From contig NZ_JABEKV010000002.1 of the NCBI RefSeq assembly GCF_013283645.1, positions 1,247,798-1,311,797 of the forward strand: a stretch of DNA of 64,000 nucleotides. The letters are read 5' to 3'. Below, piece by piece: positions 12,531 through 63,057 of this stretch. A program made the position numbers and the translations under genes. Under the pieces are notes generated by a model. The model had not been told where the DNA came from and did no database searches. It worked only from the letters and a program-made list of their open reading frames with translations. This stretch comes from Sinorhizobium psoraleae (GTDB taxonomy: Bacteria > Pseudomonadota > Alphaproteobacteria > Rhizobiales > Rhizobiaceae). Positions within the stretch are counted from its first letter, which is position 1. Each line of letters starts with the position of its first letter.

Positions 12531-13189
12531 TCAAACTTCCCTTCAAACGCCGCCAGATCTCGCGCAGAAACAGGAGCAGCAACAGGACGATGCCGACCAT
12601 CAGGAGCATCGGAAAGAGCGGGCCATCCGGCACATAGGGTGCAAGCAACTGGTCGATGTAGTGGGCAACGCGATAGCGACGATGCCTGTAAGCGCTGACC
12701 GGCCACTCACGGGACGGCAGGCCATCAAGCAGCCTTTCAACCCGTGCCACAGGCCGAACATGAGGAGAAGCAGAACCGCGATGACGAAGAGAATCTTCCA
12801 GCTGCTCGCGCTAATCCGCTCGGCCTCAGGGTTCGGCGAAACGAGGCTGTAGACAGTCTCTCGCTCGTTAAATGCTGCCACCACCGCCGCCCCGCGCCGG
12901 CTCAGCCGGCGGAGTTCCAGCAGGCCCGCAACGAATGGCAGTACCAGCGCCGCGGCAAGGCAGAGGGCTGAGACACCACCGATGTTGCTACCCACCAATG
13001 GCCGGCGATCGCCTTAAGTGCGATCAACCCCGGAAGCGCTCCCAGGGCGAGCGCGAAAAGCACCATCCAATATCGGTCGCTCTCCCGCCTGGACAGGCCC
13101 TCCAAGGGACTGCGGCGGAACCGCGGCGGCTCCCCTTCGATCGGCGGCTTCTTCCGGATGATGGGACGGAAATTACGCCTGCGCTTCAT
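12523..13189 (-). pseudogene. Membrane protein gene broken by two frameshifts
   Basis: Three overlapping open pieces line up as one gene. Piece one runs from ATG 13189 (MKRRRNFRPIIRKKPPIEGE) to GHWW near 12992. Piece two carries GSNIGGVSALCLAAALVLPF through LLLMFGLWHG. Piece three carries RLLDGLPSREWPVSAYRHRR to the stop at 12523. One extra G in each of two GGG runs (near 12990 and near 12735) would restore a single membrane protein of about 220 residues with four hydrophobic helices. The start overlaps the upstream gene by 17 bases and the end overlaps the downstream gene, as in an intact operon. Decay or sequencing error cannot be told apart here. Confidence 0.65.
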
Positions 13190-47076: not shown

Positions 47077-47829
47077 TCAGGCTTTCACGGAGAGAATGCG
47101 GCGGGCCTTTTCGAGGTCTTCCGGCGTGTCGACACCGAGGGGGACCGAGTCGACGACCTCGACGTCGATGCGCATCCCTGCCTCGAGCGCCCGCAATTGT
47201 TCGAGCGACTCGCGCTTTTCGAGGACCGAAGGTTTCAGCGACACGAAGGTTTCAAGCGCCTTGCGCCGATAGGCGTAGAGGCCGATGTGATGGTAGAGCG
47301 GGCCGGGGCCGTGCGGTGCGGTCGCGCGGGTGAAATAGAGAGCGCGCAGACGGCTCTCGGAAATCGGCGAGCCGACAACCTTCACGACATTGGGATTGGC
47401 CTTTTCATGCTCATCGGTGATCTCGACGGTGAGCGTCGCGATATCGGTCGCGGCGTTTTCGAGCGGCTTGAGCGCCGCGCGGATCGGGCCGGGCTCGATC
47501 GTCGGCAGGTCGCCCTGAACGTTGATCACGATCTCGGCATTCCCGTCGGGGTCCGCCTTCAGCAGGGCTTCATGGATACGGTCCGAGCCGGACTGATGGT
47601 CGACCCGCGTCATGATCGCCTCGAAACCGGCATCGCTGACCGCTTCGAACACGTCGCGGTGGTCAACGGCGACGACGATTCGCCCGACGTCCGCCTCGGC
47701 GGCGCGCTTGGCCACCTGCACAATCATCGGCAAGCCGCAAATGTCGGCCAGAGGTTTGCCGGGCAGGCGTGTGGACGCCATCCGCGCAGGAATGAGCACG
47801 AGAGCTTTGGCAGAATTTCCGCGATTCAT
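47077..47829 (-). CDS. kdsB: CMP-Kdo synthetase (3-deoxy-manno-octulosonate cytidylyltransferase)
   Basis: KdsB activates Kdo with CTP to CMP-Kdo for LPS and K-antigen synthesis. The 250-residue protein has [60 protein letters not shown] and [20 protein letters not shown]. It forms an operon with pheA. It lies about 15 kb from kpsF in the polysaccharide island. Confidence 0.96.
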
Positions 47830-52395: not shown

Positions 52396-52888
52396 GGCGC
52401 AGGCATGTTGTGTTTTGCGAATTCAACCGTCCGGCATGATGTTTGACTTCGCATCATATAACAATGTGATATGGCAACTCGCTCGTATTGCGGCAGCGAC
52501 GGCGAGCCGATCTCTCCGCTGTCAGTCAGCCATCGGGTATGTCTGTTGATGCGACGCCACGCGCCAGGCGCTGGTCCCGGATGAAGCGCCCCAGATGCTC
52601 GTTCCCCACCCGCATAATGAGTCCTGGCTTCAGGCCAAGCCGGGCAGCGTCGCAGGCGATGTTGGGCGGTGGTAACAGTGATCTGGGTGCTTATCTCTAT
52701 CTCGCGCATGCTGTGACGGCGAATGCTCAGTTGATCGGAAACACTCAGACTTGGCGGGGGCGCCGCTGGCAAGTAATTACGTCATGCAAGTCGCTCGTAC
52801 ACACCCACTGCGGCCGCCTCGGCGTCGTTGAAAGAGCACGCGAAGAACCGGTTCTGCAGAAATGCGCAGCAGGCGAGGAATGGAGCAA
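52396..52888. other. Gene-poor gap before the polysaccharide island
   Basis: About 490 bases without a supported gene. The minus strand reads RVGNEHLGRFIRDQRLARGV over 50 codons near 52540-52630, which may be a remnant of a DNA-binding protein, but start and extent are unclear. No RIME-like repeat is seen. It is the boundary at which GC falls. Confidence 0.35.
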
Positions 52889-53734
52889 ATGACCACGAAT
52901 GTTTTGGCAGCCAGCGGCGGCGTTAAGCAAGTGATCTGCATCAATTGGGGAACGAAGTATGGAGCCCCATTCATAAATAGACTTTACGCGATGGTGGCTC
53001 GCAACATTACGCCGCCATTCACCTTCACTTGCTTTACCGACAACCGTGCAGGTCTGCACTCCGAAATACTTTGCGAAGACTTGCCACCGCTCGACGTGGC
53101 GAACATGCCTACAAATACCAGAGGCATTTGGCCAAAGGCCCGACTCTGGGGGGCAACGCTGGGAAAGCTGAGAGGTCCAGTTCTTTTTCTCGATCTGGAT
53201 CTCGTGATCGTTTCCTCGCTCGACGCATTTTTTGACATTGGCAAGGCGGATGACATCGTCATGGCGAGAAATCAAACCACGCCCTTTGAGCGCCTCGGGC
53301 AAACGTCGCTCTTCCGCTTTCCCGTTGGGAAGCTCGTGCCGCTGCAGGAAAAATTTCGATCAGATCCACAGGGTGTAGCCGACGAGTACCGTTACGAGCA
53401 GCGCTTCGTAAGCCGCAACGCCCCCGGGGGCATAACATTCTTCCCACGAAAATGGGTTCTCCATTTTCGCCAGGACTGCCGTTGGCCATTCCCACTCAAC
53501 TACTTTCTTGCCCCACGTCTGCCGAGCGATGCACGTGTCGTTATTTTCCCGCGAGGCCTGCATCCACAGCATGCGATCGAGGGGCGATATGGAACCAAGG
53601 GTCCCCGCAAGACGGCTTTCAAACACATAGCGGGCATCTTCGATACGAAACAACGAAAGAACAAAGGCGCGCTGCAATATCTCCGACACTATATTCGTCC
53701 GACGCCTTGGGTGGCCGAGCACTGGCGCGAATAA
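52889..53734 (+). CDS. Glycosyltransferase-like protein (GT8-type fold)
   Basis: A 281-residue protein beginning MTTNVLAASGGVKQVICINW. The N-terminal nucleotide-sugar site (WGTKYGAPFINRLYAMVARN) is followed by the DxD-type LFLDLDLVIVSSLDAFFDIG near residue 105. The C-terminal half ends TPWVAEHWRE. This fits a small GT-A glycosyltransferase. Donor and acceptor are unknown. It is the first gene of the island and lower in GC than the core. Alternative starts lie at 52862 and 52880. Confidence 0.78.
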   Translation: MTTNVLAASGGVKQVICINWGTKYGAPFINRLYAMVARNITPPFTFTCFTDNRAGLHSEILCEDLPPLDVANMPTNTRGIWPKARLWGATLGKLRGPVLFLDLDLVIVSSLDAFFDIGKADDIVMARNQTTPFERLGQTSLFRFPVGKLVPLQEKFRSDPQGVADEYRYEQRFVSRNAPGGITFFPRKWVLHFRQDCRWPFPLNYFLAPRLPSDARVVIFPRGLHPQHAIEGRYGTKGPRKTAFKHIAGIFDTKQRKNKGALQYLRHYIRPTPWVAEHWRE

Positions 53735-55952: not shown

Positions 55953-56783
55953 ATGGACTTTCCCGCTTCCGGAACGACGGAGAAGTTGACGACAACGGAG
56001 CAATGGCGTGCACTGTTTTCCGCGTTCTCACACATCATTCTCGTCGCCAACAGCGACCAGGTTAGCGTTAAGGAACTTCAGGCCGAATATCCGCGGACGG
56101 CTCTCTTTGTATTCTTCAACAAGGTCTACAAGGTTCTTGATGAACAATTTGCCGGCCGCTCGCTGCTGATATCACGCGCCCAGCCGAGAGGCGCCAACAT
56201 CGTCTACCGACAAGAGGTCGCTGACGTCGTCAAGCTGTTCGCGCCCCAAGCGTTTCTAGGTATCATGAACATCCGCCTGGCGGCGAGCGAGAGATTGAAC
56301 ACTAGCTCGGATTACCTGGGGACGCCCACCGGCCATTTGGATTTGACGGGCTTCTGCGCTGACTTTTACCCGCAGGATAAAGTCCCCACAAGCGGCTTCG
56401 CCATCGCCCTGTGGCTGGTGGACCAAGCCCTTCCGGCCGAGATCGTTCTGGCAGGGTTCTCGGCAAAGCGCAGCGAAAAGTGGCGGGTGGTGGCTGTTCA
56501 TGACTGGACTTTCGAGCAGGTCTTCTTGCGCCTCTTTGCAAGAGTGGGCAAGCTGACGATGCATGGTGGTATCACGACAAACAGTTACACATCGCTCGCT
56601 TCGCGTTTCCCGGAATTGCCCGCTGCTGAAATCTCCTCGACGATCGCTGAAGTCTTGTCATCGCGACTGAGCCAGACCGATGCGCAAGTCGACAAGTTGA
56701 TTTCTTTGACAAACGTATTGCGATCCATTGACGAATATTTACGGCGGCTGAAGCCGAAGTTTCTAAGGAAAACGAAGGTGTAG
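55953..56783 (+). CDS. Sialyltransferase-like protein (GT29-type motifs)
   Basis: A 276-residue soluble protein. The N-terminal Rossmann-like part shows IILVANSDQVSVKELQAEYP and TALFVFFNKVYKVL. The C-terminal half has PTSGFAIALWLVDQALPAEI followed by VLAGFSAKRSEKWRV and AVHDWTFEQVFLRLF. The S-motif-like PTSG...GF and the His-x4-Glu pattern (HDWTFE) recall the sialyltransferase VS motif. I cannot confirm the family without a search. It starts a three-gene operon with 56825 and 57619, in which similar motifs occur. Confidence 0.6.
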   Translation: MDFPASGTTEKLTTTEQWRALFSAFSHIILVANSDQVSVKELQAEYPRTALFVFFNKVYKVLDEQFAGRSLLISRAQPRGANIVYRQEVADVVKLFAPQAFLGIMNIRLAASERLNTSSDYLGTPTGHLDLTGFCADFYPQDKVPTSGFAIALWLVDQALPAEIVLAGFSAKRSEKWRVVAVHDWTFEQVFLRLFARVGKLTMHGGITTNSYTSLASRFPELPAAEISSTIAEVLSSRLSQTDAQVDKLISLTNVLRSIDEYLRRLKPKFLRKTKV

Positions 56784-56824
56784 TAGCATTACATTTGCCA
56801 AGTGCCGATTTCTGGTGAGGATAA

Positions 56825-57556
56825 ATGGGATCATCGATCTCCGATGCGCGCAAGCGCATATACCGAAATCTGAAGTACCGCATAATGCGTCCGGATCCGC
56901 CGGCTGCCCCCTTTCGATTCAATAGTCCCGTCGTGGTCGTCGGGTCCGCTCCCGTGTCCCATAAGCCGGCCGGATTGGACGAGAGCTTCAGGATCATTAC
57001 CGTGAACGGCTCTCAATCGGTCATCAGCAAGTGGGGCGTCGATGCGCCCGACATAACCATGATGATGTTCAACCAGGTCGAAGGAACCACTCCGAATGCG
57101 GTTGAAGTCAGACGTGTGCTAAAGGGGCAGCGCACTGGGACGCTCTATGTATTTCTCTGGCGAAAGGACGACCGCGCGCGGCTGGAGGAAGGCTTGCGGG
57201 CGTTCGATTACCAATACGACCGGCTGGAGATCGTTGATCGGTATGAGCGGATGGCGTTGCTGGACCGCGTGGCTAAGTTGCGTTCCCTTGAGATGGATGC
57301 AGATTCCAAATGCTCAAACGGAATGAACGCGGTTCTCTTTGCCCTTTATAACGGAGCCCCCGCCGTCATCATTACTGGAATAAACCCGAACTCAGCCGGC
57401 CATGCCTACAATTCAGTGGGTTTGACACGACTTCATGTCCAGATGGATAAAGTCCTCGTTTCGAAGCTAATTAGTCAAGGCCGCCCGATTTACACGGCGG
57501 ATCCGCCGGTTTCGGAAGAGCTCGGCATTCCGTTGTGGAGCGATCTAGGCCGCTGA
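56825..57556 (+). CDS. Sialyltransferase-like protein (GT42/DUF115-type motifs)
   Basis: A 243-residue protein. The start of the fold is VVVVGSAPVSHKPAGLDESF (Gly-Ser-x-Pro nucleotide-type loop), then RIITVNGSQSVISKWGV. A second conserved block is CSNGMNAVLFALYNGAPAVI, ITGINPNSAGHAYNSVG and a His-x4-Asp-like LHVQMDKVLVSKL. The same blocks in the same order are in the protein at 61077-62000. The order recalls bacterial sialyltransferases such as CstII, by eye. The gene lies 41 bases after 55953's gene. Function is inferred. Confidence 0.6.
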   Translation: MGSSISDARKRIYRNLKYRIMRPDPPAAPFRFNSPVVVVGSAPVSHKPAGLDESFRIITVNGSQSVISKWGVDAPDITMMMFNQVEGTTPNAVEVRRVLKGQRTGTLYVFLWRKDDRARLEEGLRAFDYQYDRLEIVDRYERMALLDRVAKLRSLEMDADSKCSNGMNAVLFALYNGAPAVIITGINPNSAGHAYNSVGLTRLHVQMDKVLVSKLISQGRPIYTADPPVSEELGIPLWSDLGR

Positions 57557-57618
57557 AGTTTTTTGATACTCACGCTGTTCTCATACTTGCCTGCTCAACG
57601 CCTGCGATAGAGAAATCA

Positions 57619-58554
57619 ATGCGTTCAAACCGCCCCTTTTCCCGTTCTTGCATCAAGATCGCCGTTCGTCTGCTATTAGGACGCTCCAAGGCACATGTGC
57701 AGGACTGGTTTCCCGGCCTCAAGCTCGAGCGTGCGACGGCAGAGCGAAATGGCATGATCCAGTATCGGGGCAAGTTGGTGGGACATCTCACGAACCACTC
57801 ACGCGCTTTGCAGGCAAAATCATCGAGCGTTCTTATCGTCGGCTCCGGTCCTTCGATCGCGCAATGCGACCTCACCCGCGCAGATGAGTCTTCCTGCGTT
57901 CTCTTGAACGGCGCGGTGCATCTTTTTCCCGCCGTAATAGCAAAGCCCCTGGCGGTTGCAATTGAAGACGAGCGGTTCGTATGGAGACACTTCGATCTTA
58001 TGAAGCGGGTCCCGGCCGGATGCGTGTGTCTCTTGTCAGTGAGCGTCATAAGGGCGATCTGTGAATTGGACAGCGCATGGTTGCGAGACAAAACGGTCAT
58101 ATTGATCGATAACCTGCGAAAGCCATATGGGCTGCCACGCCGGGACATCATGGAACTGCGCAAGCTGTCCCATGTGAGGTTGAGCGAGGACGGTGCGATA
58201 GGGTTTTCTGAGAATCCCTCCGCCGGTGTCTTCCAGGCAGGCTCAGTGGCCGTTTCAGCTACACAATTTGCCGTCGCTTGGAAGCCTCGCGCGATCGGGT
58301 TCGTGGGGATCGATATCAGTAATGCCGATGAGCCCAGATACTATGAAACAACCGATAGAGCCTATTCGGGAATCATCACGGCCCAAAAGTGGATTATCGA
58401 CCACTTGGTAATGGCTCGGAGCATAGCCGTCGAACGCGGCATCGAGATCGCAAATTACTCGCCTGTCTCGGCGCTTATCGAGGTGGGGTTTGGCTACAAC
58501 GCCACATTTGCCAAAGGCACGCGAGGCGGCGGGTCGTCTCCACCGCCCCGATGA
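57619..58554 (+). CDS. Sialyltransferase-like protein (GSGPS motif)
   Basis: A 311-residue protein from ATG 57619 (the open frame begins at 57535). It carries SVLIVGSGPSIAQCDLTRAD and LLNGAVHLFPAVIAKPLAVA. A second block reads AGVFQAGSVAVSATQFAVAW, then PRAIGFVGIDISNADEPRYY. GxGPS is a hallmark shared by GT42-type sialyltransferases and MptE-like/DUF115 proteins. It ends the three-gene operon 55953-58554. An N-terminal basic/amphipathic stretch (RSNRPFSRSCIKIAVRLLLG) may mediate membrane contact. Confidence 0.6.
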   Translation: MRSNRPFSRSCIKIAVRLLLGRSKAHVQDWFPGLKLERATAERNGMIQYRGKLVGHLTNHSRALQAKSSSVLIVGSGPSIAQCDLTRADESSCVLLNGAVHLFPAVIAKPLAVAIEDERFVWRHFDLMKRVPAGCVCLLSVSVIRAICELDSAWLRDKTVILIDNLRKPYGLPRRDIMELRKLSHVRLSEDGAIGFSENPSAGVFQAGSVAVSATQFAVAWKPRAIGFVGIDISNADEPRYYETTDRAYSGIITAQKWIIDHLVMARSIAVERGIEIANYSPVSALIEVGFGYNATFAKGTRGGGSSPPPR

Positions 58555-58577
58555 AAATGGCTCATGGTGTCGCGCGA

Positions 58578-59267
58578 TTAAGCCGAGCGCTGCATTACAT
58601 GAAGAACGCGATCACGTGCAGCGAACCATTCCTCGGCGTAGTCATCGTTCTTGTATTCATCGAAGTAAGGCCCGCCATCTGTGAAATGGACAAGCTTTGC
58701 ATCCGGCGAATATTCGTACTCGTTGACGAGCCAGTTCCAGTTCGCCGGCAGCTCGCCGATCAGGTCGTCGGAATCCAGCCATTTGAACTGATGCAACTCC
58801 AACCCAGTAGCGGTATTGACGTAATCCAGATCCAGCTTTCGGCACTTTGCGTTGTTGAACAGGATGACGCTCGACCAGTTCTTCTTTTCGTACTTGGTTT
58901 GGACTTGCCCCAGGAACTTCGTTTCGACTTTCGGAACGTAGTTGTGTTTTACACACATCGCCGCGTAGCGATCGTCTCTCAGCTCCCACAACTGGGCGAT
59001 ATCAGTTCGCATCAGCATGTCGCAGTCGACGAAAAGCGACCAACCCTCGTAGTTGCTCAGATAAGGCACGAGGAATCGCGAAAAGGAAAATTCGGTAGAT
59101 TGGAGAGGATTCCGCTCGCGCGTAAAAATCCTCTCGACGTTGCTCAGAGATATCGGCGTGAACGAGACCGGGATGGAGCTCTTTTCCAGAATACTTTGGC
59201 AAAGAACATGATAGGCAACGACTTCCTTGCTATCGAAGCCGATGTAAATATGAGCACTTTGCGTCAT
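58578..59267 (-). CDS. Glycosyltransferase family 8-like protein
   Basis: A 229-residue protein with AHIYIGFDSKEVVAYHVLCQ at the N-terminus, the DxD text SLFVDCDMLMRTDIAQLWEL near 85 and LDSDDLIGELPANWNWLVNE near 165. The end reads HFTDGGPYFDEYKNDDYAEE, as in small GT8-type LPS enzymes. ATG 59267 follows GGAGG by four bases (an adjacent GTG is less likely). It faces the 57619 gene convergently. Confidence 0.82.
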   Translation of the reverse strand: MTQSAHIYIGFDSKEVVAYHVLCQSILEKSSIPVSFTPISLSNVERIFTRERNPLQSTEFSFSRFLVPYLSNYEGWSLFVDCDMLMRTDIAQLWELRDDRYAAMCVKHNYVPKVETKFLGQVQTKYEKKNWSSVILFNNAKCRKLDLDYVNTATGLELHQFKWLDSDDLIGELPANWNWLVNEYEYSPDAKLVHFTDGGPYFDEYKNDDYAEEWFAARDRVLHVMQRSA

Positions 59268-59270
59268 CAC

Positions 59271-59607
59271 ACCTCCGATTATAGGTAGGCTTCAAAACTT
59301 CCTGGGTCTGGCTTGTTCCTCTAAGTGGCGAAACGACTTGAACTAACTTTGATTTGCGTCTCAACCCGATAACCGGTTTAGCCAAAAAAGGCGGCGGCGT
59401 GAAGCCTGGGACAGCGGATAACGTTCATCTCGCCGGCATACACCACTTCCATGTCGCAGGGTCTCGTCCTGTAGATGAAGCGAAATCTTGTGCTTTGTAG
59501 TTCGTAGCCATAGGAGGGCGTCTGGCAAATTCCTCCAACTTCGCCTAGTAGCTTGTCGCTTGACCGCTGGATTACGACCAGTGTGGGCGAGGACGATGGG
59601 AGGGGGA
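59271..59607. other. Intergenic region, possible gene fragment
   Basis: No complete gene is supported. The minus strand reads GGICQTPSYGYELQSTRFRF and DMEVVYAGEMNVIRCPRLHA before a stop at 59378, which looks like a real protein tail. But upstream it runs into the antisense of the next gene without a start, so at most a remnant exists. Confidence 0.3.
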
Positions 59608-61101
59608 ATGCGCAGTCTCCTGGTTCGACGACCGAACCTCTTATACGTTCTGATTGCCGGTTATTGCCTGCTGAGCATCGTCTTGAAAATACTGCGCCCG
59701 GATTCGCTCGAGATCGACGAGTCCGAACAAGCTCTGCTCTCTCAATATCTGCTTCTCGGATACGGAGCCCAGCCACCCTTCTACAACTGGCTTCAATATG
59801 GAGTCGTGGCCCTATTTGGAATCTCCGTCGCATCGCTGACTGTCGTAAAAACCGGACTTCTGTTCCTCTTTCTTCTGTTCTACGGCTTTACCGCGCGTGT
59901 ACTCGCGAGCAGTGAGCTCGCCCCGACGGTGGCGGTGCTGGGCGTCCTGACGCTGCCACCAGTTTTCCTTCTGTCGCAGCGCGACCTGTCCCATACCGTC
60001 GCAGCATTATTTGCGGTGTCGCTCTTCCTTTATGCCTTTTTTCGAGCTCTAAAGAGACCGCCCCGGCTTGGCCGCTACTTGCTTGTCGGCGTTGCCGTAG
60101 GGCTCGGGGCGATTTCCAAATACAACTTCGTTATACTCCCCGTCGCGGCATTGCTTGCCATTTTGCCGGAAGCGATGCTGCGCAAACATTTGTTTGACTG
60201 GCGTGTACTCGCTTCGGCTGCGGTTTGCGCGTTGATTGTGGCACCCCACGCCTTCTGGATCGTCAACAATATTGGCCATGCCACTGGTGTCACTGTCGCT
60301 GAGATGAAGGAGGGAGCGGACAGTGCACTGCTGCCGCACGCCATCCAGGGGCTTGTTTCCCTCGCAGTTGCAACACTCAAGGGCGTCGCGCTGATTCTTG
60401 CCGTCTTCGGGTTGATCTTCTATGCGGACATCGGGAAGATCCTGCGCGCCGAGAGTCTCTGGACGAGGGTCGTCGGCAGGATGCTTGTTGCCTGTTTCCT
60501 CATGGTCGCGGTTATCGTCGTCGCAATGGATGCGACCCACATTCGTCCGAAGTGGCTGGCGCTTTTTACGGCACTTCTCCCGCTTTATCTCACGCTAAAA
60601 ATCGATGCCGCGGGTCTGGATCCTGCCCGGCGCCTTCCCGCGCTTCTTTCGATAGCGGGCGTCCTCTCCGTCGGCGCCATCCTGATGCTGTGGGCAAGGG
60701 TCTTTATCGGTCCGATGATCGGCGACTATTCCTTCGCGCACACGCCCTATAGCGGCTTTGCCGCCGCTGTGCGCGCTGAGACCGGTGCGCCACCAGTGGC
60801 TATTGTCGTTGACGACCGAATCGTGGCGGGCAATTTCAGAATTCAGTTTCCAGACACTCCGATCATCCTGACCGGATTTTCCCAAGGGGCAGAGAAACGG
60901 CTTCCGGCAGGACGAATTCTGGCTGCTTGGTCGGCAGAGGGTAAAGGGCTCGAAGCGATTCCTCCTCGCATTTCGGTCCTGCTGGGATCCATGCCCATCA
61001 GAATGGCCGATTCGAAGCCGACGATCGTCTCAGTTCCCTACAACGCCGGGCGCCCGGGCGACGTATACACCTTTGCCTATGTTTGGGCGGACCTCCTGTG
61101 A
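59608..61101 (+). CDS. GT39/PMT-type membrane glycosyltransferase
   Basis: A 497-residue polytopic membrane protein with about 10-12 helices. The first periplasmic loop holds the acidic pair LEIDESEQALLSQYLLLGYG, then AQPPFYNWLQYGVVALFG, as in ArnT/PMT-type enzymes using lipid-linked sugar. LSQRDLSHTVAALFAVSLFL and KYNFVILPVAALLAILPEAM follow. A soluble C-terminal part closes it. ATG 59608 lies just after a GGGAGGGGG. The sugar is not known. Its stop overlaps the convergent 61077 gene by 25 bases. Confidence 0.85.
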   Translation: MRSLLVRRPNLLYVLIAGYCLLSIVLKILRPDSLEIDESEQALLSQYLLLGYGAQPPFYNWLQYGVVALFGISVASLTVVKTGLLFLFLLFYGFTARVLASSELAPTVAVLGVLTLPPVFLLSQRDLSHTVAALFAVSLFLYAFFRALKRPPRLGRYLLVGVAVGLGAISKYNFVILPVAALLAILPEAMLRKHLFDWRVLASAAVCALIVAPHAFWIVNNIGHATGVTVAEMKEGADSALLPHAIQGLVSLAVATLKGVALILAVFGLIFYADIGKILRAESLWTRVVGRMLVACFLMVAVIVVAMDATHIRPKWLALFTALLPLYLTLKIDAAGLDPARRLPALLSIAGVLSVGAILMLWARVFIGPMIGDYSFAHTPYSGFAAAVRAETGAPPVAIVVDDRIVAGNFRIQFPDTPIILTGFSQGAEKRLPAGRILAAWSAEGKGLEAIPPRISVLLGSMPIRMADSKPTIVSVPYNAGRPGDVYTFAYVWADLL

Positions 61102-62000
61102 AGCCGGTCCGGGCCGACCGAGCCGTCCATGTTGGCGGCAATGTCGCTTCTATCACGAACGAAAGGCAGACCGATATGCTCAGAGAGCTCCAACTCGGTC
61201 GTGAAGACATTTCCTCGATTTTTCAAACGCGTCAGAACGAAGGTGTCTTCGGCGATCTGCCGCCGGATTCTCCCCTTGTCGTCGTAAGAATGGCCCATCT
61301 TGGTGACTGAGAACCCGGCGAGGGTCACAGACGGCACCCCCACGAAAAGTCCGTAGCAGACGGCGGCAACTCCGTTCGTCACCTTCCCTAACTCCCCAAT
61401 ATCAGAGGGAAGCCCGCCGCTCACGACGTCTACGATAGCCTCGCGCTCATCCTTGGTGGCGCGCATCAGGCTCTTGTAACGCACGCGCGGCATTGAAAGA
61501 AGTTTCAGGTACATCACCCAAAGAGGCTTCGTATGGAGCCATAACAGACCTCTCGTCCTTACATAGGGATGCTCTTCCCAAGACTTCTTCCGCTTCCGGA
61601 ATGTCAAATCGGCGCGCGGGAGACCCAGTGCGTTGGCCGTCTTGCCCGAGTTATTAACGTCAACGCGCGCGCAATGTCCTATCAGATCCGGTGGTATCGT
61701 GGGGGACGGTGCGGAGCCGAGGATCAGCCACGGCCTATCGAGAATCCCGAGCCGCGAGAGCCAGCGGCGGTGCTTTTCTCGCAATGTTTCAAGCGCGTCA
61801 GGTTCAATCGTCATCACGAGTCCATTGGCCAAGTAGCGAAGGCGAGATTGACTTAGGGCTGCCCTTATGTCTCGCACAAGCCCGGCCACGTGTCCATTCG
61901 CCGCCCAGTCTTCGTCTTCGGGCTGTGGGCAGTATGCAACTTCCTGGTTTTTCTGTCGGTCACGCGCCAGAAAGTGTGGGATATACTCGCAAACTCGCAC
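61077..62000 (-). CDS. Sialyltransferase-like protein, paralogue of the 56825 gene
   Basis: A protein of up to 307 residues (GTG 62000; a later start is possible). The block LILGSAPSPTIPPDLIGHCA, then RVDVNNSGKTANALGLPRAD, aligns with VVGSAPVSHKPAGL and TVNGSQS of the protein at 56825. The block VTNGVAAVCYGLFVGVPSVT, LAGFSVTKMGHSYDDKG and LSEHIGLPFV aligns with NGMNAVLFALYNGAPAV, GHAYNSVG and SEELGIPLW. The position of the possible catalytic His is Arg here. It is divergent from kpsF by 67 bases. Family assignment is by eye. Confidence 0.6.
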   Translation of the reverse strand: MRVCEYIPHFLARDRQKNQEVAYCPQPEDEDWAANGHVAGLVRDIRAALSQSRLRYLANGLVMTIEPDALETLREKHRRWLSRLGILDRPWLILGSAPSPTIPPDLIGHCARVDVNNSGKTANALGLPRADLTFRKRKKSWEEHPYVRTRGLLWLHTKPLWVMYLKLLSMPRVRYKSLMRATKDEREAIVDVVSGGLPSDIGELGKVTNGVAAVCYGLFVGVPSVTLAGFSVTKMGHSYDDKGRIRRQIAEDTFVLTRLKNRGNVFTTELELSEHIGLPFVRDRSDIAANMDGSVGPDRLHRRSAQT

Positions 62001-62067: not shown

Positions 62068-63057
62068 ATGGATATGATTGTAAGCGACGCGATATTGGCG
62101 TCGATCCGTCGCACGATTGCCACTGCTGCTGACGGGATAGATGCGCTGGCGGTTTGTCTTGAGGGTGACGCGGCCCTGCGTAGTAGTTTCGTCGATGCCG
62201 TCGAACTGGTCGCCTCGAGGAGTGGCCGCGTCGTGGTCGCGGGCATAGGCAAGAGCGGTCACATCGGACGCAAGATCGCCGCAACGCTCGCTTCTACCGG
62301 CACGTCCGCCTATTTCGTGCATCCGACGGAAGCAAGTCACGGCGATCTTGGCATGATCACGGCGCAGGATCTGCTTATTCTGCTTTCATGGTCCGGTGAG
62401 ACCGTCGAACTCGGGAATATGCTTACTTACGCCAAGCGCTTCAATGTTCCCGTGATTTCCGTCACCTCGAATCCCGACAGTATAATCGCTCGCAACTCCA
62501 CGGTCGCGATTGTCCTGCCGAAAGTGTCGGAGGCATGCCCTCATGGGCTAGCCCCGACCACGTCCGCGATGCTGCAGTTGGCAGTGGGGGATGCTCTCGC
62601 AATAGCCTTGCTTGAGCGGAGAGGTTTTTCGGCTCAGGATTTCAAGACGTTTCATCCGGGCGGCAAACTCGGTTCTCAATTGCTTCTTGCACACGAGCTG
62701 GCCCATTCGGGCGAAGCCGTGCCCCTATTGCCGATTGGCAGTCCAATGAGCGAGGCGCTCATCCAGATGTCCTCGAAGGGTTTCGGGGTCGTCGGTGTAG
62801 TTGGTAGTGACGGTGATCTTGTTGGCGTGATTACCGACGGGGATCTGCGGCGGCATATGTCGGAGAATCTTTTGCTGCTCACTGTCGGGACCGTGATGTC
62901 ACATACGCCAAGGGTGATTACGGGTGGAATGCTGGCCAGCGCGGCAATGGAAATGATGCAGTCGCAAAAGATCACGGTGCTATTCCTGATCGATGATCTG
63001 CGTCGGCCGCTAGGCATCTTGCACGTCCACGATCTTCTGCGTGCCGGCGTTGCGTAA
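62068..63057 (+). CDS. kpsF: Arabinose-5-phosphate isomerase, KpsF/KdsD family
   Basis: It interconverts ribulose-5-phosphate and arabinose-5-phosphate, the first step toward Kdo. The 329-residue protein has a SIS domain (VVVAGIGKSGHIGRKIAATL, LLILLSWSGETVELGNML, ISVTSNPDSIIARNSTVAIV) and two CBS domains (SPMSEALIQMSSKGFGVVGV, GTVMSHTPRVITGGMLASAA). A K-antigen locus commonly has its own kpsF. Here it stands among glycosyltransferases and 15 kb from kdsB. Confidence 0.94.
   Translation: MDMIVSDAILASIRRTIATAADGIDALAVCLEGDAALRSSFVDAVELVASRSGRVVVAGIGKSGHIGRKIAATLASTGTSAYFVHPTEASHGDLGMITAQDLLILLSWSGETVELGNMLTYAKRFNVPVISVTSNPDSIIARNSTVAIVLPKVSEACPHGLAPTTSAMLQLAVGDALAIALLERRGFSAQDFKTFHPGGKLGSQLLLAHELAHSGEAVPLLPIGSPMSEALIQMSSKGFGVVGVVGSDGDLVGVITDGDLRRHMSENLLLLTVGTVMSHTPRVITGGMLASAAMEMMQSQKITVLFLIDDLRRPLGILHVHDLLRAGVA

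Follow-up and report, generated by a model that had tools for sequence, protein, structure and literature searches.

WaaZ, the 3-deoxy-manno-octulosonate-III (Kdo-III) transferase of the enterobacterial lipopolysaccharide (LPS) core, the Maf flagellin glycosyltransferases, and the GT42 sialyltransferases CstI and CstII are already known, and the use of Kdo by sialyltransferase-type enzymes has precedent. According to the respective papers, Neisseria Lst adds Kdo (PMC8092323), Maf proteins can use Kdo activated with cytidine monophosphate (CMP) (PMC11339370), and the plant GT29 protein RCKT1 has been put forward as a CMP-β-Kdo transferase giving α-Kdo (PMC11288761). Bacterial GT29-like proteins have also been described (part of PMC5811610). 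Here, we compare these systems with four proteins, A to D, encoded by a polysaccharide island in a 64,000-nucleotide stretch (the window) of a 7.4-Mb Sinorhizobium psoraleae genome. With moderate confidence, we favor the reading that A to D are putative, divergent inverting CMP-Kdo transferases that would generate α-Kdo linkages. Profile comparisons place C and the B/D family quite safely within the sialyltransferase-like superfamily, to which A probably belongs as well, on the GT29 side; for A, the profile signal is weaker than for the other three proteins. An earlier, sequence-only reading of this DNA had described all four as sialyltransferase-like. Its observations on the four proteins are confirmed, with motifs mostly conserved across orthologues, and its interpretation is partly supported.

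The open reading frames of A (276 amino acids [aa]; 55953..56783, plus strand), B (243 aa; 56825..57556, plus strand), C (311 aa; 57619..58554, plus strand, with an ATG start at 57619), and D (61077..61814, minus strand) all exist. The N-terminal loop noticed earlier is present in each of them (VANSD in A, VGSAP in B, VGSGPS in C, and LGSAPS in D), as is a second block of small residues (PTSGFA..AGFS, SNG..TGIN, GSVA..GID, and TNG..AGFS, respectively). Conservation of these and other positions was followed in 46 A proteins, 22 to 86% identical to that of the window, and in 45 B/D proteins (26 B-type and 19 D-type).

Protein C is a WaaZ-like putative Kdo transferase. All 13 members of its family match the WaaZ_KDO_III model (TIGR04437; best E 6.8e-18) along most of the domain, the window's C with 35.3 bits (E 7.3e-9; 9.4e-9 in its own NCBIfam scan), and a tblastn search with C extends to Klebsiella aerogenes, to a record annotated as RfaZ (E 4e-4). 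GxGPS, NG, and GID..RFYE blocks are common to C and its WaaZ-like relatives. The window's protein carries the first as a GSGPS loop (57841..57855, plus strand) and the last as GID...RYYE (58306..58347, plus strand), in which G230, D232, R240, Y242, and E243 are invariant in 13/13 rows. Unlike WaaZ, C occurs in a different genus and gene neighborhood. A C profile built without proteins matching the Maf profile still linked C to Maf (E 6.6e-7) and to the GT42 domain (E 6e-5), and a GT42 enzyme was among its best solved matches in the PDB (E 0.013). Maf differs from C in having frames that are mostly 730 to 930 aa long (range, 265 to 1219) and in glycosylating flagellin. Every C member also shows a weak match to the MptE-like family PF01973 (best E 2.2e-4), as would be expected if these were MptE/DUF115-type proteins with an unrelated function (pterin diphosphokinase); this is highly improbable, since the window's C scores 18.3 bits on that model against a cut-off of 34.6, WaaZ matches better, and the genes stand among glycosyltransferase genes. 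The window's C ends in an extension (58516-58554) absent from the 12 other rows.

B and D are paralogues, as their shared motifs had suggested: tblastn aligned them at 25% identity (E 3e-13; 22 loci), with an E value of 3e-10 within their own genome, and hhalign did so over 199 columns (E 8.8e-15). D most likely starts at 61814, instead of 62000, and thus comprises 245 aa, because in 9/15 other loci a stop codon precedes the shared start by no more than 23 codons and the S. meliloti annotation measures 738 nucleotides. Of the named relatives, those most nearly identical to B come from Sinorhizobium/Ensifer. Across the 45 B/D proteins, G185 and D208 are invariant, and H193 (43/45), Y195 (44/45), and R202 (42/45) are nearly so. 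In B, these residues follow a GSAP donor-loop motif (56942..56953, plus strand) and lie within a SNG...TGIN...GHxY...R202, H204, D208 region (57314..57448, plus strand).

In a PDB search with a 44-row B/D profile, the top 7 of the 11 matches were entries of GT42 CstII (best E 0.0017). These seven represent a single enzyme, so the matches are not independent; the eighth was a lipooligosaccharide α-2,3-sialyltransferase (E 0.11). The alignment set SNG..TGIN..GHxY of B on TSG..GID..GSSY of CstII, with the Tyr of GHxY on that of GSSY. In CstII, this Tyr and a His are catalytic. The likeness to the best solved relatives extends over a stretch of only about 44 residues, the His of CstII has no certain counterpart in B/D, and the CstI/CstII family PF06002 was matched by none of 36 B/D members and by no protein of their own genome. 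CstII is the name given to PDB entry 1RO7 in a passage of PMC11288761. B/D reached E values of 4.1e-6 and 1.5e-4 with five bacterial GT29-like proteins and of 0.0035 and 4e-4 with the GT42 domain; the better scores with the former place B/D between GT42 and GT29. Comparison with the Maf profile gave an E value of 7e-4. One B/D protein, L081, for which an in-frame stop is reported, was left out of the 45 rows for the PDB profile and kept in the hhalign profile as a stop-to-stop frame. On these profiles, B is best described as a GT42/GT29-like putative CMP-sugar transferase.

Motifs and profiles together suggest that A is a GT29-like putative CMP-Kdo transferase. Its VANSD loop (56043..56057), comparable to the GT29 L motif, is followed by an S-like PTSG...AGF motif (56385..56459) and a VS-like HDWTFE motif (56499..56516), all on the plus strand. 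This S-then-VS order had already been noticed in the earlier reading. N33 and S34 of the loop, G148 and F169 of the S-like motif, and H183, W185, and E188 of the VS-like motif are invariant in 46/46 proteins; P145 is kept in 40/46. ANS and FFN (N56, 37/46) occupy the places of GNS...RxN in the L-motif region while being off consensus, the loop being neither GNS nor GNA, and motif III was not visible by eye in the A alignment. Set against the five bacterial GT29-like proteins by hhalign, A aligned over 150 columns at E 2.4e-4 and over 57 at E 2.8e-4, in a register pairing PTSG with P[ST]xG, AGF with GF, and VHDWTFE with HDFDRE-type stretches. The same P[ST]xG..G[FY] then HxxxxE arrangement is thus found on both sides. 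Proteins scoring above the PF00777 cut-off were retrieved from 4/299 genomes. Two of them (L153 and L154) entered the final five together with three plasmid relatives (L157 to L159), which were found through L153 and joined by relation to it, not by PF00777 score; two further PF00777 matches (L155 and L156) were excluded, since HxxxxE is absent after their S-like stretch. Two A-like genes occur in tandem or close together in three genomes (G1010:C18, G936:C4, and G960:C3).

These links were set against 66 control profiles, each made from another gene family present at these loci, some of them possibly spurious frames; WaaZ stood outside this test, and the control rows of the first large hhalign comparison were tblastn segments with stops written as X. 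None of the 66 reached the scores of A with B/D or GT29-like proteins, of C with Maf or GT42, or of B/D with C, Maf, GT42, or GT29-like proteins. Controls scored as well in 12/66 cases for A with GT42, and in one case each for A with Maf and C with GT29-like proteins. A profile link between A and C was rejected, as their score was equaled or beaten by 9/66 controls (36 in the other direction).

The neighborhoods of A speak to the donor. A occurs in 31/151 genomes of the family, which together hold 36 full-length KdsB matches; four of these genomes also have partial matches of 84 to 108 bits. KdsB is present in all 31, so its presence alone is uninformative, and occurrence without CMP-sugar genes, put forward earlier as a refuting condition, is of little use as a test. 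The location of the extra copies is more informative. The five supernumerary full-length KdsB genes (in G936, G1048, G960, G955, and G954, the only genomes with a second copy) all lie within about 1.3 kb of A: three adjoin it, one is separated from it by a D-type gene, and one by a GT8 gene across a distance of about 1.3 kb. On TIGR00466, four of these A-side proteins score 161 to 180 bits and one 154.0 against a cut-off of 155.2, compared with 220 for housekeeping KdsB; all five lie above the cut-offs of NF009905 and NF003952 and below that of the equivalog model NF003948. Judged by these models, they are predicted CMP-Kdo synthetases of a divergent group. A gene for a HAD-type phosphatase, possibly a Kdo-8-phosphate phosphatase, adjoins the A-side KdsB in three genomes (L140, L141, and L145).

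KdsB near A in 5/31 genomes, the WaaZ-likeness of C, and the published capsule effect of apparent orthologues support the earlier suggestion of a Kdo donor. Rhizobial K-antigens can also hold nonulosonates. The enzymes might accordingly keep the sialyltransferase fold and use another CMP-activated acid, whether pseudaminic, legionaminic, or another nonulosonate or 3-deoxy-ulosonate. The divergence of the A-side KdsB proteins would allow a Kdo variant, and elsewhere in the window's own genome a further, incomplete CTP_transf_3 match scores 35 bits. We regard this alternative as unlikely: where a CMP-sugar gene was seen near A (5/30 neighborhoods) it was of the KdsB type, with no search made for nonulosonate synthesis genes, C resembles WaaZ, and the apparent orthologues affect a Kdo homopolymer.

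Those orthologues are found in S. meliloti, which has the same gene order on pSymB, with identities in strain 1021 of 92% for A, 92% for B, and 78% for C. Other S. meliloti strains, and likewise an Ensifer canadensis record, annotate A as '3-deoxy-manno-octulosonate cytidylyltransferase', B as 'membrane-anchored protein', and C as 'glycosyl transferase'; for strain ABS7, whose table is incomplete, no gene is listed where A would lie. No S. meliloti pSymB record contains a true KdsB (E 1e-6); matches fall in seven Sinorhizobium records, of which three are plasmids, from S. chiapasense and S. mexicanum, and the other four are replicons measuring 3.5-3.7 Mb. A passage of a paper on the peptide NCR247 states that 'rkpA, kdsB2, smb20804, and smb20805' have an effect on the capsule, citing Muller et al. 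2009 (PMC5539429). Gene order and annotation give a good probability that kdsB2, smb20804, and smb20805 are A, B, and C, the identification of kdsB2 with A being further based on the absence of a true KdsB from S. meliloti pSymB. Three of the four genes have apparently been published as influencing the Kdo capsule, and the set is accordingly not wholly undescribed. In PMC5539429, they figure only as capsule-affecting genes.

The cytidylyltransferase name, carried in S. meliloti and E. canadensis records, would make A a true CMP-Kdo synthetase. We give this reading almost no credence, since the sequence already speaks against it: CTP_transf_3 is matched by 0/46 A members (E up to 10), and no NCBIfam model by A (E up to 1), whereas the model for KdsB gives the real enzyme 419.6 bits. 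Five genomes, moreover, carry A and a true KdsB close together. A is not the cytidylyltransferase of its annotation, which corrects the function name given to A orthologues in the Sinorhizobium and Ensifer records examined. Should A be a CMP-Kdo transferase, as we favor, the gene apparently known as kdsB2 would encode a transferase and not a CMP-Kdo synthetase.

A more direct role in the capsule is conceivable. The S. meliloti capsule is described as a β-(2-7)-linked Kdo homopolymer in the same passage that lists kdsB2, smb20804, and smb20805 among the capsule-affecting genes (PMC5539429), and one or more of A to C could polymerize it. The abstract of Muller 2009 reportedly speaks of polymerization. 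The reading is improbable, because an inverting enzyme of the GT29 type would give α-Kdo, eukaryotic GT29 members being classed as inverting (part of PMC5811610), and KpsC-type β-Kdo transferases are retaining (part of PMC10148158). PF05159 (KpsC/S-type; E 1e-5) is matched in 14/31 A-bearing genomes, including that of the window, and in none of the other 17, among which are all five with an A-side KdsB. The occurrence of A in 31/151 genomes of the family and in Rhizobium, Neorhizobium, and Paracoccus records also counts against this reading.

Several results weigh against A to D being inverting CMP-Kdo transferases. The His ahead of an Asp in B, likened earlier to CstII-type enzymes, holds for B-type proteins (H204 and D208, 26/26) and fails for most D-type ones, in which His is kept in 4/19 and replaced by Gln in 15/19, as in D itself; a conserved His is upheld for A and B. 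C falls far below the WaaZ cut-off (35 versus 200 bits). The 36 B/D members matched no relevant Pfam family, only nine at chance level (best E 0.06), and a shallower B/D profile of 36 closer rows retrieved unrelated proteins and no sialyltransferase from the PDB. PF00777 was matched by 0/46 A members (E up to 10), the A family retrieved only nine chance-level Pfam families (best E 0.019), and its profile had no PDB match. A plain Pfam scan similarly gave no family for A or D and a single chance-level one for B, and for A and B plain and shallow-profile searches of the PDB also turned up nothing relevant. Single GT29-like sequences found nothing significant in A, and a three-sequence GT29-like profile gave A no better than E 0.0014 and 0.0084, while one of the controls scored 0.0085; the five-sequence profile was assembled after that result, and both are given here. 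In an earlier, smaller control set, comparison of A with the GT39-like gene of the island gave E 0.0023. No KdsB lies near A in 25/30 neighborhoods, and the window's genus is represented in the family sample by two further genomes, both lacking A. The β linkage of the S. meliloti capsule also counts on this side, since an inverting enzyme would not make it from CMP-β-Kdo.

The loss of the His in D would suit proteins that have kept the fold and lost transferase activity, serving as partners or chain-length regulators of other glycosyltransferases. It would also suit capsule mutants that reportedly change polymerization without abolishing the capsule. We judge this quite improbable, as the candidate catalytic residues are kept without exception in A (46/46) and B (26/26) and A is found together with a CMP-Kdo synthetase.

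As CMP-Kdo transferases, A to D would be small cytosolic glycosyltransferases of a superfamily comprising GT29, GT42, Maf-MptE, and WaaZ, each predicted to use the CMP form of Kdo, or of a closely related 3-deoxy-ulosonic acid, as donor. Other sialyltransferase families of this type are inverting too, and transfer here would likewise proceed with inversion to yield an α linkage. The acceptor may be a glycan built by the co-encoded GT8, GT92, and ELM1-type enzymes, with the GT8 enzyme perhaps adding a hexose that then receives the acid. Because the capsule is β-linked, these families inverting, and KpsC-type enzymes retaining, we favor a division of labor. The β-linked backbone more likely requires KpsC-type enzymes, which would make it where present, and A to D would add α-Kdo to a primer, core, or end group, possibly altering polymer length.

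The four genes do not form a constant set. Among 30 A neighborhoods in the family, several of which end at contig edges, GT8 is found in 20, B/D-like genes in 8, C-like genes in 2, and KpsF in none, so that A plus GT8 is the most constant pair. In 19 named loci, A occurs in 17, B (the query) in 19, D orthologues in 15, and C in 12 (11 orthologues and a 26% relative in L016), together with GT8 in 18, GT92, ELM1, and the first glycosyltransferase of the island in 16 each, and KpsF in 6. KpsF, whose co-occurrence had been proposed as a check, is therefore no obligate partner. In wider samples, A was recovered from 3/249 and B/D from 5/249 genomes of the order, and B/D from 4/337 of the class. A search of 398 genomes for PF06002 found one relative only. 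An order-mate genome encodes a 624-aa frame (L077; G034:C3:420352-420930) in which a GT42 (CST-I) domain is fused with a GT8-like stretch, the latter recognized by eye, which supports the pairing of such enzymes with GT8.

Within the literature searched, the A and B/D families as putative superfamily members, the connection of these families with KdsB and GT8, and the proposed reassignment of the 'cytidylyltransferase' gene appear to be new; none of the matches listed in the open-licence literature describes these proteins as sialyltransferase-like, most subscription papers being outside that scope. The parallel with RCKT1 lies in the function proposed for both, as CMP-Kdo transferases (part of PMC11288761). 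As a tentative proposal, which we hold to be possible rather than probable, Alphaproteobacteria may contain an unrecognized, multi-family set of sialyltransferase-fold Kdo transferases around A and GT8, sometimes with its own CMP-Kdo synthetase, in which A would represent a divergent bacterial branch near GT29 with CMP-Kdo as the ancestral donor. GT29 has been proposed to have reached eukaryotes from alphaproteobacteria (part of PMC5811610). If both were true, the sialyltransferases of animals and the Kdo transferases of plants would alike trace back to Kdo transferases of bacteria. The KdsB-linked A family offers a bacterial test case for such an origin of GT29. A transferase function would also provide an enzymatic role, open to testing, for genes that apparently shape the symbiotic Kdo capsule and that, as indicated by transposon sequencing (Tn-seq) in a passage of PMC5539429, apparently also shape sensitivity to the plant peptide NCR247.

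The remainder of the island is rich in glycosyltransferase genes. Upstream of A lie a glycosyltransferase-like gene without a Pfam match, whose relatives are annotated 'glycosyl transferase' (52862..53734, plus strand), an ELM1/GtrOC1-type putative glycosyltransferase gene (PF06258; 53790..54752, minus strand), and a GT92 gene (PF01697; 54798..55712, minus strand). The GT8-like hexosyltransferase gene, the most constant neighbor of A, follows C (58578..59270, minus strand), with a Pfam score of 24.1 bits, just below the cut-off of 24.3. Next comes a gene identified by Pfam as encoding a GT39-like (PMT_2) membrane glycosyltransferase (59596..61101, plus strand), a variable member of the island, of which L011 retains a remnant match (12648-12740) and L006 none, with the neighbors kept in both. 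Beyond D, Pfam and NCBIfam identify a KpsF/KdsD-type arabinose-5-phosphate isomerase gene as an optional member (62068..63057, plus strand), followed from 63217 on the plus strand by an acyltransferase-like frame named after the annotation of its S. meliloti counterpart. On plasmid pAMI5 of Paracoccus aminophilus (L037 5419-9264), relatives of A, B, and GT8 lie beside a gene for a 1281-aa glycosyltransferase. The real CMP-Kdo synthetase of the host, the housekeeping KdsB, is encoded beside a prephenate dehydratase gene (47077..47829, minus strand), 8.1 kb from A and the island, in contrast to S. meliloti, in which the island is on pSymB and the kdsB match on a 3.7-Mb replicon.

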